From: Erythrobacteraceae bacterium CFH 75059
GTDB taxonomy: Bacteria; Pseudomonadota; Alphaproteobacteria; Sphingomonadales; Sphingomonadaceae
Length of the DNA stretch: 64,000 nucleotides
NCBI GenBank assembly: GCA_004331795.1
Contig: SJSR01000001.1
Location: forward strand, 62,001-126,000
Direction of reading: 5' to 3'
Shown: positions 47,133 through 49,888 of the stretch, in pieces
Position numbering within the stretch: position 1 is the stretch's first letter
How the letters are laid out: each line of letters starts with the position of its first letter
Translations under genes and position numbers: made by a program
Notes under the pieces: generated by a model
What the model saw: the letters and a program-made list of their open reading frames with translations, nothing else
The model's database searches: none
What the model was told of the DNA's origin: nothing

Positions 47133-48452
47133 TCAGACTGCGCCGAGCGCCTGTTCGAAGTCCGCAATCAGGTCGTCCGCATCCTCGATCCCCACGCTGA
47201 TCCGCACGAGGTTGTCGGAGATCCCCAGTTCCGTCCGCCGCCCCTGAGGCACGGACAGGTGGGTCATTGACGCCGGGTGGCTCGCCAGGGTTTCCGTGCC
47301 GCCGAGGCTCACCGCGAGCTTGGCCACCTTCAGCGCGTCGAGGAAACGGAAGCATTCCTCCTCCCCGCCCTTCAGGAACACGGAAAAGGTCGAGCCGGCG
47401 CCGAGGCAATGGCGTTCGTAGATGTCCTGCTGGCGCGGATCGCTGATGAAGCCGAGATAGCCCAACCCCTCCACCTTCGGGTGGTCGCGCAGGTAAGCGC
47501 AGACCTTGGCGGCGTTCTCGCCTGCGCGCGTCATGCGCAGTTCCACCGTCTCGAGGCTGCGCAGCAGCATCCAGGCGGTGTTCGGGTCGGCAATGCCGCC
47601 CATCGTGTTGCGCAGGGAGCGGACCGGGTTCATCCACTTCTTCGCCCCCGCCACACTTCCCGCAACGAGGTCGCTGTGACCGCCGACATATTTGGTCAGC
47701 GAATAGGCGACGATGTCGGCCCCGTGCTCCAGCGGCCGCTGCCACAAGGGGCCGAGAAAGGTGTTGTCGATCGCGATCGGAGGGCCGTCCGCGCCGAACG
47801 CCGCGTCGCGCGCATCGCGCACCGCCTGCACATCGACCAGCGCATTGGTCGGGTTGCCGGGCGACTCAAGGTAGATCATCGCCACCTTGCCTCCCTGCTC
47901 GGACGCCATCTCGGTCGCGCGGGCAAGGATGTTGTCGAGTTCGTCGCGGGTCGCGCCGGCGGGGAAATCGACATAGGAGACGCCGAACCGGCTCAGCGTC
48001 TTGGCGACGAACCCTTCGGATGCGGCGTAGAGCGGCCCGGAGTGGACGATCACGTCGCCGGCCGAACAATAGGCCATCATCAGGATGCAGATCGCGGTCA
48101 TCCCGGAGGAAAAGCACAGCGCGTCCTCGGCCCCGTCCCAGATGGCCAGGCGGTCCTCCAGAATTTCCTGGTTCGGCCCGTTGAAACGCGAATAGACGAG
48201 GCCCTCCGCCCCGCCCTCGCGGATGCCGGTGATCCCCTCGAAATGCCGCTTGCCCGCCGCCGCGGATTCGAAGGCGAAGGTGGAGGTGAGAAAGACCGGC
48301 GGTTTCAGCGATCCTTCCGACAGCACCGGATCGTAGCCATAGCCCATCATCAGCGTCGCAGGCTTGAGCCTCCGGCCATTGAGGCTCGTCACCTCCGGCT
48401 TGGGCTTGCGCCGGGGGAGCGGATTGCCGGACGAATCGAGTGCATCGGGCAT
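47133..48452 (-). CDS. Cystathionine gamma-synthase-family PLP enzyme
   Basis: 439-residue Cys/Met-metabolism enzyme (trans-sulfuration fold). It has YSRFNGPNQEILEDRLAIWDGAE, LCFSSGMTAI, YLESPGNPTNALVDV, the cofactor aspartate in IAIDNTFLGPL and the PLP lysine in VAYSLTKYVGGHSDLVAG. The N-terminal extension KPEVTSLNGRRLKPATLMMGYGYDP is typical of a long alphaproteobacterial subfamily. Whether it makes cystathionine or is a methionine gamma-lyase cannot be decided from sequence. The AAGGAAGG ribosome site lies in a predicted pseudoknot, and a short peptide is encoded upstream, so expression is probably controlled in the leader. Confidence 0.88.
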   Translation of the reverse strand: MPDALDSSGNPLPRRKPKPEVTSLNGRRLKPATLMMGYGYDPVLSEGSLKPPVFLTSTFAFESAAAGKRHFEGITGIREGGAEGLVYSRFNGPNQEILEDRLAIWDGAEDALCFSSGMTAICILMMAYCSAGDVIVHSGPLYAASEGFVAKTLSRFGVSYVDFPAGATRDELDNILARATEMASEQGGKVAMIYLESPGNPTNALVDVQAVRDARDAAFGADGPPIAIDNTFLGPLWQRPLEHGADIVAYSLTKYVGGHSDLVAGSVAGAKKWMNPVRSLRNTMGGIADPNTAWMLLRSLETVELRMTRAGENAAKVCAYLRDHPKVEGLGYLGFISDPRQQDIYERHCLGAGSTFSVFLKGGEEECFRFLDALKVAKLAVSLGGTETLASHPASMTHLSVPQGRRTELGISDNLVRISVGIEDADDLIADFEQALGAV

Positions 48453-48453
48453 G

Positions 48454-48496
48454 AAAAAACCTTCCTTGGTCGTGTGGCCCCCAGGAAGGCGGGGGC
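48454..48496 (-). promoter_or_regulatory. Predicted pseudoknot/attenuator covering the ribosome binding site
   Basis: On the minus strand GCCCCC (48496-48491) pairs with GGGGGC (48482-48477). Its 8-base loop contains CCTTCCT (48489-48483), which is complementary to AGGAAGG (48466-48460), the ribosome binding site of the downstream enzyme. The two stems (6 and 7 bp) with 1- and 10-base connecting loops fit an H-type pseudoknot. Six T residues (48459-48454) follow, so the second stem could also act as a terminator. Confidence 0.6.
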
Positions 48497-48524
48497 AGGT
48501 CGTGCCGGAGGGGCGCTGGCGATC

Positions 48525-48563
48525 CTAACCTCCGCAGGACCGCATCTCCGCCACCAGCAGCAT
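48525..48563 (-). CDS. Putative 12-codon leader peptide
   Basis: ATG CTG CTG GTG GCG GAG ATG then CGG TCC TGC GGA GGT TAG encodes MLLVAEMRSCGG. There is no Shine-Dalgarno sequence (CCTCCC precedes it), but a -10 box sits about nine bases upstream, so the transcript would begin at or next to the ATG, as in leaderless trpL of Sinorhizobium. It contains methionine and cysteine codons and stops 73 bases before the sulfur-amino-acid enzyme gene, consistent with attenuation. Confidence 0.5.
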   Translation of the reverse strand: MLLVAEMRSCGG

Positions 48564-48572
48564 GGGAGGCGA

Positions 48573-48601
48573 CGATTAACGGGGGCACGCGGCGCTTTCA
48601 A
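48573..48601 (-). promoter_or_regulatory. Predicted housekeeping promoter for leader peptide and PLP enzyme
   Basis: Minus strand TTGAAA (48601-48596), then 17 bases, then TAATCG (48578-48573); or a 16-base spacer to TTAATC. It places the start point near the leader-peptide ATG. Confidence 0.5.
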
Positions 48602-48679: not shown

Positions 48680-49321
48680 ATGATCCGCCTGCCTGCCGCC
48701 CCGTGCCTGCTCGCCGCTCTCCCCGTTGCGTTTGTCGCGCAGGCGCAGTCGCCATCTGCCGAGCAGTGGGAGATCGGTCCTGTCGAGCGCGGACGCAGCC
48801 TGTCGCCCGGCATGCCGCCCACGCTGGAGGCCACGCGCGACGGACCGGCGTTCCGTTTTCCGCAGCCGAGCGCCGCAGCAGGCCATGTGCACTACGTCAC
48901 CGTTCCCGTCAGCTCGCTGGAACGCGCGCGCCGGATCACCCTGCGCTACCGGATCGATGCCGCCCCCGGCGTGCGCTTCGTGCCGCAGGAAGCGCCGCAT
49001 GAAGAAGCCAGCCTGTCGCTCTATTTCCAACAACGCGGCGATGGCTGGACCCGCCGCTTTCCCACCCACCGCTGGTACGCGCCGTCCAGCAAGGTCATGC
49101 CCCTGCGTCCGGGCACGCACACGGTGACGGTCGCCATGAACGAGCCGTGGGTCGCGGTCCTCGGCGGCACTTCCCACGATCTGCCCGAGGACTTCGCCGC
49201 GGCACGGCGCGACACGGCGCGCGTGGGCTTTGTCTTCGGATCGGCAGCGAGCGGGCGCGGCCATGGCGTGTTCGCCACCGGACCGGCTCGTTTCACCATT
49301 CTCGACTTCCGGATCGAATAG
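48680..49321 (+). CDS. Secreted hypothetical protein
   Basis: 213 residues with a signal peptide (MIRLPAAPCLLAALPVAFVAQAQ). The mature part is beta-rich (VHYVTVPVSSLERARRITLRY, SLSLYFQQRGDGWTRRF, THTVTVAMNEPWVAVLGG, ARVGFVFGSAASGRGHGVFA), suggesting a jelly-roll or lectin-like sandwich. I recognise no catalytic motif. It stands alone, divergent from the PLP-enzyme leader and convergent with infC, so context gives no hint of role. Confidence 0.65.
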   Translation: MIRLPAAPCLLAALPVAFVAQAQSPSAEQWEIGPVERGRSLSPGMPPTLEATRDGPAFRFPQPSAAAGHVHYVTVPVSSLERARRITLRYRIDAAPGVRFVPQEAPHEEASLSLYFQQRGDGWTRRFPTHRWYAPSSKVMPLRPGTHTVTVAMNEPWVAVLGGTSHDLPEDFAAARRDTARVGFVFGSAASGRGHGVFATGPARFTILDFRIE

Positions 49322-49345: not shown

Positions 49346-49888
49346 TTACTTGGGCGAGAGCACCATCAGCATCTGCCGGCCTTCGAGGCGGGGATAGGCT
49401 TCGACCTTGGCGGTTTCGGCCACGTCCTCCTGCACCCGCTTGAGCAGGTCCATCCCGAGCTGCTGATGCGCCATTTCGCGCCCGCGGAAACGCAGCGTGA
49501 TCTTGACCTTGTCGCCATCCTCGATGAAGCGCGCGACGTTGCGCATTTTGACGTCATAGTCATGATCATCGATGTTCGGGCGCATCTTGATCTCTTTGAT
49601 GTCCTGCGTCTTCTGGGTCTTGCGCGCCGCGTTGGCCTTTTTCTGGGCCTCGTAGCGGAACTTGCCGACGTCGAGGAACTTGCACACCGGCGGATCGGCG
49701 TTGGGCGACACCTCGACGAGGTTCAGCCCGAGTTCGGCCGCCTGTTCGATGGCTTGCCGCGTGTACATGACGCCAAGGTTCTCGCCCTCGTCGTCGATGA
49801 CGCGGACCTTGTCAGCCTGAATGAAGTGATCGAAACGCGGGCCGCTCTTGATCGGCGGCTGAAGCATGCGGCGAGGCGGACGGGGTAT
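49346..49888 (-). CDS. infC: Translation initiation factor IF-3 (probable AUA start)
   Basis: IF-3 splits ribosomes and checks the start codon. The N-domain (VRVIDDEGENLGVMYTRQAIEQA), the lysine-rich linker (FRYEAQKKANAARKTQKTQ) and the C-domain (IKEIKMRPNIDDHDYDVK, RFRGREMAH) are intact. The first ATG (49867) has no ribosome site. AGGAGA (49901-49896) lies seven bases before an in-frame ATA at 49888, giving 180 residues beginning (M)PRPPRRMLQPPIKSGPR, like family N-termini. A rare start codon on infC is the known autoregulation device (AUU in E. coli). Confidence 0.85.
   Translation of the reverse strand: MPRPPRRMLQPPIKSGPRFDHFIQADKVRVIDDEGENLGVMYTRQAIEQAAELGLNLVEVSPNADPPVCKFLDVGKFRYEAQKKANAARKTQKTQDIKEIKMRPNIDDHDYDVKMRNVARFIEDGDKVKITLRFRGREMAHQQLGMDLLKRVQEDVAETAKVEAYPRLEGRQMLMVLSPK

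Follow-up and report, generated by a model that had tools for sequence, protein, structure and literature searches.

A conserved pseudoknot leader before a cystathionine gamma-synthase-family gene in the Erythrobacter group, probably a translational control RNA not represented in Rfam 15

The 64-kb stretch of DNA analysed here (the window) carries on its minus strand, at 47133–48452, a gene for a 439-amino-acid protein of the cystathionine gamma-synthase family, and immediately 5′ of it, at 48601–48453 on the same strand, lies the leader that is the subject of this study. Further upstream are a divergent ORF of 213 amino acids (48680–49321, plus strand), for which no NCBIfam match was found at E ≤ 1e-5, and beyond it infC, encoding IF-3 (49346–49867, minus strand). 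The family assignment of the downstream gene, part of the original prediction, was borne out by a match of 658.7 bits to NCBIfam NF005455/PRK07049 (cut-off 504), and the closest solved chains are an uncharacterised enzyme of Cys/Met metabolism and a putative cystathionine gamma-synthase. The home genome holds no other relative of the gene at E ≤ 0.001, and it encodes a cystathionine beta-lyase (locus L002) above the TIGR01324 cut-off; both facts fit a role in methionine synthesis. This role is uncertain, since in the home genome MetX (TIGR01392) stayed below its cut-off, with one fragment of 22.2 bits, and the search for MetA (PF04204) found nothing. From a Sphingomonas, PMC6970198 reports a gene that resembles metB/metZ, probably acts as a cystathionine gamma-synthase and is a possible ortholog of the present one.

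Read 5′ to 3′, the leader begins with a −35 box, TTGAAA (48601–48596), followed after 17 nt by a −10 box, TAATCG (48578–48573). This promoter had been predicted beforehand; it is present in the sequence, and its spacing to the RNA element is fixed in the relatives, where the −10 end lies 19–24 nt 5′ of GGAGA in 68 of 87 loci. The scan behind this figure covered all 87 loci, which were not de-duplicated, and the best −35/−10 pair averaged 13.4 against 11.1 in shuffles (sd 1.3), while on the window itself it favoured an overlapping 18-nt spacing. Given the fixed distance between promoter and element, the transcript should start just 5′ of the first helix (P0), with a predicted start at about 48567–48565. 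At loci L171, L173, L174 and L175, which form one lineage, the element seems, by eye, to abut the stop codon of the upstream gene, and it may be intercistronic there and lack a promoter of its own.

The whole element spans about 110 nt and in the relatives is ordered, from 5′ to 3′, as P0, internal loop, P1, variable spacer, P2, linker and Shine-Dalgarno sequence (SD). In the window the P0 strands GGCG (48552–48549) and CGCC (48515–48512) were paired by eye, with covariation in the relatives, and their register is shifted relative to most of these. The 5′ side of the internal loop reads GAGAUG (48548–48543); relatives mostly have AGANG there, facing GGYG on the 3′ side. The P1 strands CGGUCC (48542–48537) and GGAUCG (48525–48520), which covary, enclose a near-invariant loop of 11 nt, UGCGGAGGUUA (48536–48526), within which GGAGGU (48533–48528) mimics an SD and has a possible partner in the P2 loop (48490–48485). 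This upstream arm, made of P0 and the P1 hairpin, was absent from the original prediction and was found through the homologous leaders. Downstream of it, the covarying P2 strands GCCCCC (48496–48491) and GGGGGC (48482–48477) enclose the loop GCCUUCCU (48490–48483), a candidate anti-SD whose CCUUCCU stands opposite AGGAAGG, the SD of the gene and the second strand of the pseudoknot helix (48466–48460), at the far end of a 10-nt linker (48476–48467). The resulting geometry is that of an H-type pseudoknot, with a stem of 6 bp, one base, a stem of 7 bp and no bases between the stems.

Folded by itself, the window leader does no better than shuffled sequences, 144 of 200 of which equal or surpass its energy (z +0.63), so that a comparison of homologues was needed. 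Orthologs were gathered from 59 genomes, 40 of which have one at E ≤ 1e-80, and the named ortholog loci used were the best 80 of 534, among which Porphyrobacter sp. GA68 is the nearest named relative (protein 95% identical), which places the home genome in the Erythrobacter group. The 110 ortholog loci examined comprised 87 with both loop anchors upstream of the gene, 21 without the element, and L050 and L089, which have no upstream DNA. The 87 loci, in which some genomes are present twice, reduce to 84 distinct leaders; these were found by two loop patterns, and loop conservation in them is therefore partly built in. Alignment A1, made with MAFFT and not structure-fitted, holds 72 of the 84, those with long or irregular spacers being left out (L005, L006, L034, L035, L036, L038, L061, L065, L069, L073, L079 and L082).

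In A1, 91.5% of the cells are paired and 12 of 18 pairs show double changes, with a covariation score of 0.331 compared with 0.177 in shuffles, none of 500 of which reached it, and with 0.07–0.14 in slid controls. P2 is paired in 99.5% of its cells; P0 is the weakest helix with 76.3%, partly because its register shifts between species, yet five of its six pairs show double changes. Moreover, APC-corrected mutual information over the ungapped blocks of 126 distinct rows placed predicted P2, P1 and P0 pairs at the top six of 3916 column-pair scores, ranks 7–9 being near neighbours and not base pairs. At rank 17, an internal-loop base, A-11, and the first base past P1, A+14 (columns 16 and 42 of A1), show weak covariation and perhaps form a non-standard pair. 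The P1 loop is identical in 119 of the 126 distinct rows, which were gathered using that loop as an anchor. The loops are nearly unvarying, such that the helix between P2 loop and SD shows few changes and the pairing between P1 and P2 loops none, and neither covaries broadly. In a deep relative with a protein 73% identical the loops are retained while the stem sequences are new, and in some deep relatives the internal loop is altered or missing. The leader thus has what is expected of a riboswitch, a conserved structure joined to an expression platform, and judged by its covariation it is almost certainly a real conserved RNA. Aligning homologous leaders had been named beforehand as the check, and a lack of either pairing or peptide in them as grounds for refutation; the alignment returned conserved and covarying pairing, and the peptide was not conserved, so that the refutation applies to the peptide and not to the pairing.

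The original prediction that the pseudoknot takes up the SD held in the homologues, where the pairing rises above its controls. In 74 of 83 leaders the P2 loop can form six or more contiguous pairs with the sequence downstream of it, as opposed to about 14% with shuffled tails, and in 72 of the 83 the match starts 6–10 nt past P2, which sets the linker length. As any SD is purine-rich, other SD-bearing genes of the same loci served as a further control: at least six Watson-Crick pairs between P2 loop and SD are present in 57 of 65 target genes versus 7 of the 165 controls. In the close relatives L005, L034 and L036, which lie on one tree branch, a single position of the helix is A-U, G-U and G-C, the SD losing an A in the first step and the loop changing from U to C in the second. 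Against the pairing, the P2 loop of L062, L065 and L068 has changed without a change in the SD, with loss of a mid-helix pair, and 9 of 83 leaders reach only 4–5 contiguous pairs. Taken together, these comparisons make it very likely that the P2 loop masks the SD in a pseudoknot. At loci L054, L105, L079 and L011 the linker between P2 and SD is lengthened by 32–40 bases, all or part of which form a fold of their own, and a match of 6–8 pairs is retained there.

A covariance model of the element (R1) was searched in 397 genomes of the family, 296 of the order and 349 of the phylum. R1 finds a single strong copy in the home genome and, with the limit set at E ≤ 0.01, matches 131 of the 397 genomes of the family; in 125 of the 397 there is one copy each at E < 1e-3, and in six there are weak matches alone (seven rows, E 0.0017–0.008). 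The order sample yields matches in 89 of 296 genomes, every one of them within the same family and three of them weak. In the phylum sample 7 of 349 match, four strongly and from within the family, the other three (E 0.006–0.008, two of them outside the order) being fewer than the 3.5 expected by chance; outside the family, therefore, nothing above chance level was found for R1 in the order and phylum samples. By these matches the element is kept in more than 100 genomes of the Erythrobacter group. The anchor lies upstream of the ortholog in 49 of 50 stretches around R1 matches examined by script, the exception, L196 (401 bases), giving no gene match, and the remaining matches were compared with the listed gene positions by eye. 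With one copy in each genome at E < 1e-3, R1 revealed no further target genes, and with a single target gene the ligand cannot be read from the regulon. We found no related DNA on plasmids.

The controlled gene is more widespread than its leader, with a match at E ≤ 1e-120 in 311 of the 397 genomes of the family, so that many orthologs lack the element. On a FastTree phylogeny of 132 orthologs (96 with and 36 without the element), its presence needs 5 changes versus a mean of 31.7 when shuffled, and well-supported branches force at least 3. Read from this tree, the element is an old feature with few losses or gains. In 11 of the 36 orthologs without it (L014, L015, L103, L217, L219–L223, L226 and L228), GTTAC...AACC, or a close variant, stands directly against the ATG and looks like a −10 box from which a transcript without a leader would start. 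Leader and leaderless expression seem to have been exchanged here, in one direction or the other.

We consider it reasonably probable, at about 0.6, that the leader controls translation, with the pseudoknot masking the SD and the P0–P1 arm probably sensing a signal or competing for the P2 loop. When the pseudoknot is formed, the SD would be masked and the enzyme would not be made. The GGAGGU of the P1 loop, by mimicking the SD, may take the P2 loop away from it, and the arm might then decide between an OFF state, with the P2 loop on the SD, and an ON state. Over 84 leaders the mean energies are −10.2 kcal/mol for P2 loop with SD and −7.4 kcal/mol for P2 loop with P1 loop, and −10.8 and −9.4 kcal/mol for the P1 loop and the SD, respectively, with the 16S tail. 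Such a competition between the two loops is conceivable but somewhat doubtful, and GGAGGU could act either as a competitor freeing the SD or as a decoy for the ribosome. Apart from the P2 loop, it is the P0–P1 arm that contains the conserved unpaired bases; the arm is therefore the likely sensor, and its signal may be a small RNA, a protein or a metabolite. A small-molecule riboswitch has slightly less than even chances. Going by the identity of the gene alone, the arm might respond to a metabolite of sulfur amino acids, in the simplest case turning expression off when SAM or methionine is plentiful; SAM itself as the ligand is rather unlikely.

Among other readings, one stands ahead of the rest, though it is unlikely: the leader would be read not by a metabolite but by a protein, or a small RNA acting in trans, that attaches to the invariant P1 loop. 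In its favour, the unpaired bases with the strongest conservation lie together in one exposed loop of 11 nt, and the internal loop, which would make a natural pocket for a ligand, is altered or lost in some deep relatives. CsrA binds GGA loops, which would make it a candidate for such a protein; however, no gene for it (PF02599) was found in the home genome, whereas the control search finds CsrA in 3 of 14 named genomes, and a leader controlled by CsrA/RsmA was rejected on this ground. Another possibility is that there is no switch at all and that the pseudoknot and the SD-like P1 loop fix the level of translation or the stability of the message, for instance as a standby site or a decoy. The pairing of GGAGGU with the 16S tail, at least as good as that of the real SD, would suit such a function, as would the 11 apparently leaderless orthologs among the 36 without the element, in which this control is evidently not essential. 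Yet a constant level would hardly justify so strongly conserved a leader, with its two loops and three stems, and we regard this reading as improbable.

The original prediction also offered ribosome stalling on a leader peptide, and a 12-codon ORF, MLLVAEMRSCGG including the stop (48563–48525), does exist in the window; furthermore, 31 of 84 leaders have a six-codon ORF whose AUG is in register with a conserved UAG and whose codons are formed by the stem and loop of P1. The 12-codon ORF is not conserved in the homologues, however. Half of the distinct leaders (42 of 84) have no AUG in its frame, and in 37 of 84 all three frames are free of AUG from the predicted start region through to the end of P2. 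Its Met and Cys codons consist of bases of the P1 stem and loop, and their changes track the RNA stem: the codon of the second Met is AUG in 33, AGG in 35, AAG in 14 and ACA or ACG in 2 of the 84 leaders, and the Ser codon becomes Phe, Thr, Val or Ala in relatives while the stem is kept (by eye). A leader-peptide attenuator would show a conserved short ORF with regulatory codons, which this leader does not, and a peptide mechanism, be it attenuation or a ribosome stalled on Met or Cys codons, is accordingly very improbable. The run of six T between SD and gene (48459–48454), likewise pointed out beforehand, is there in the window and has no counterpart in the printed relatives, for which reason a terminator formed with it was rejected; peptide and T run are both judged incidental. 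It is hardly more probable that a pair of REP-type palindromes merely happens to precede the gene. This idea draws on the seven weak R1 matches in other sphingomonads, all of which are palindrome pairs (e.g. GCTCCTGCCTTCGCAGGAGC) resembling P1 plus P2, but the element is single-copy and fixed in position, and palindromes with at most one mismatch occur in 13 of the 30 nearest relatives, with one inexact copy in the home genome. Such palindromes would account at most for the origin of the element, not for its function. The REP-like pairs GCTCCTGCGAAGGCAGGAGC...GCTCCTGCCTTCGCAGGAGC were seen at L176–L182, and as a possible origin they have little support from near relatives.

With respect to known RNA families, a search of the window and of ten relatives at gathering thresholds matched the leader to no Rfam 15 family, the sole match in the window being a tRNA elsewhere, and the Rfam models of SAM-II, SAM-V and SAM/SAH gave no match at E ≤ 10 with the window leader and L041. 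The remark made beforehand that the SAM-II signature is lacking was thus correct, and it extends to the other riboswitch families searched. In a search limited to open-licence papers we found no description of the element, which is probably a translational control RNA outside Rfam 15. A divergent member of a known SAM class (SAM-II, SAM-V or SAM/SAH) would share with it the principle of an H-type pseudoknot taking up the SD, as given in PMC7367207 and PMC6061858; nevertheless, the missing Rfam match, the additional P0–P1 arm and the conserved unpaired bases outside the pseudoknot render this reading very remote. Bolder is the idea of a new riboswitch class and a first candidate for RNA control of the methionine pathway in Sphingomonadales, namely a bistable SD-mimic switch whose P0–P1 arm reads a metabolite such as SAM or an intermediate, which we put forward as a speculative and not very likely proposal. 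If the SD-mimic idea is true, it would represent a simple design for a translational switch, made of two opposed SD and anti-SD loops. With its length of about 110 nt and its single target gene, the element lends itself to direct study of structure and ligand.

Two further elements resemble the leader in part. The odc1 (uORF-25-1) motif, an alphaproteobacterial cis-element tested from Sphingomonas echinoides and with an unknown ligand, likewise combines a masked ribosome site with a pseudoknot according to PMC8632094. Unlike the present leader, whose peptide is not conserved, odc1 is described there as having a conserved 11-residue uORF peptide that overlaps the main start, and it precedes a different gene. 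The metXZ element of Betaproteobacteria is, in PMC4239095, an orphan RNA with a proposed pseudoknot and one copy per genome in most genomes, and it shares with our leader all of these features as well as the pathway step. It differs in the terminator hairpin that follows it and in its phylogenetic group, a comparison made by description only.

SAM-V is, as described in PMC6061858, also an alphaproteobacterial pseudoknot that lies before a methionine-synthesis gene and masks the SD, and its type has a different taxonomic range, Rhizobiales and Rhodobacterales, in PMC4239095. The present leader departs from it in giving no Rfam match and in having no recognised third-strand region. Similar in architecture is also the SAM/SAH riboswitch, which is found before metK in Rhodobacterales (distribution in PMC4239095) and in which, according to PMC7367207, translation is controlled by an H-type pseudoknot whose helix includes the SD as a strand. 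The leader described here has the same pseudoknot with the SD in its helix, but it differs by its P0–P1 arm, its conserved SD-like loop, the gene it precedes and the lack of an Rfam match. In addition, the ligand of SAM/SAH lies between the stem and the pseudoknot helix, where our leader has no conserved unpaired bases except one G. In PMC4239095, the three SAM/SAH riboswitch families are placed in groups other than Sphingomonadales, and for the seven Sphingomonadales genomes the table, going by its layout, gives a SahR-type regulator. A conserved RNA before a sulfur-transfer enzyme would fill this gap.
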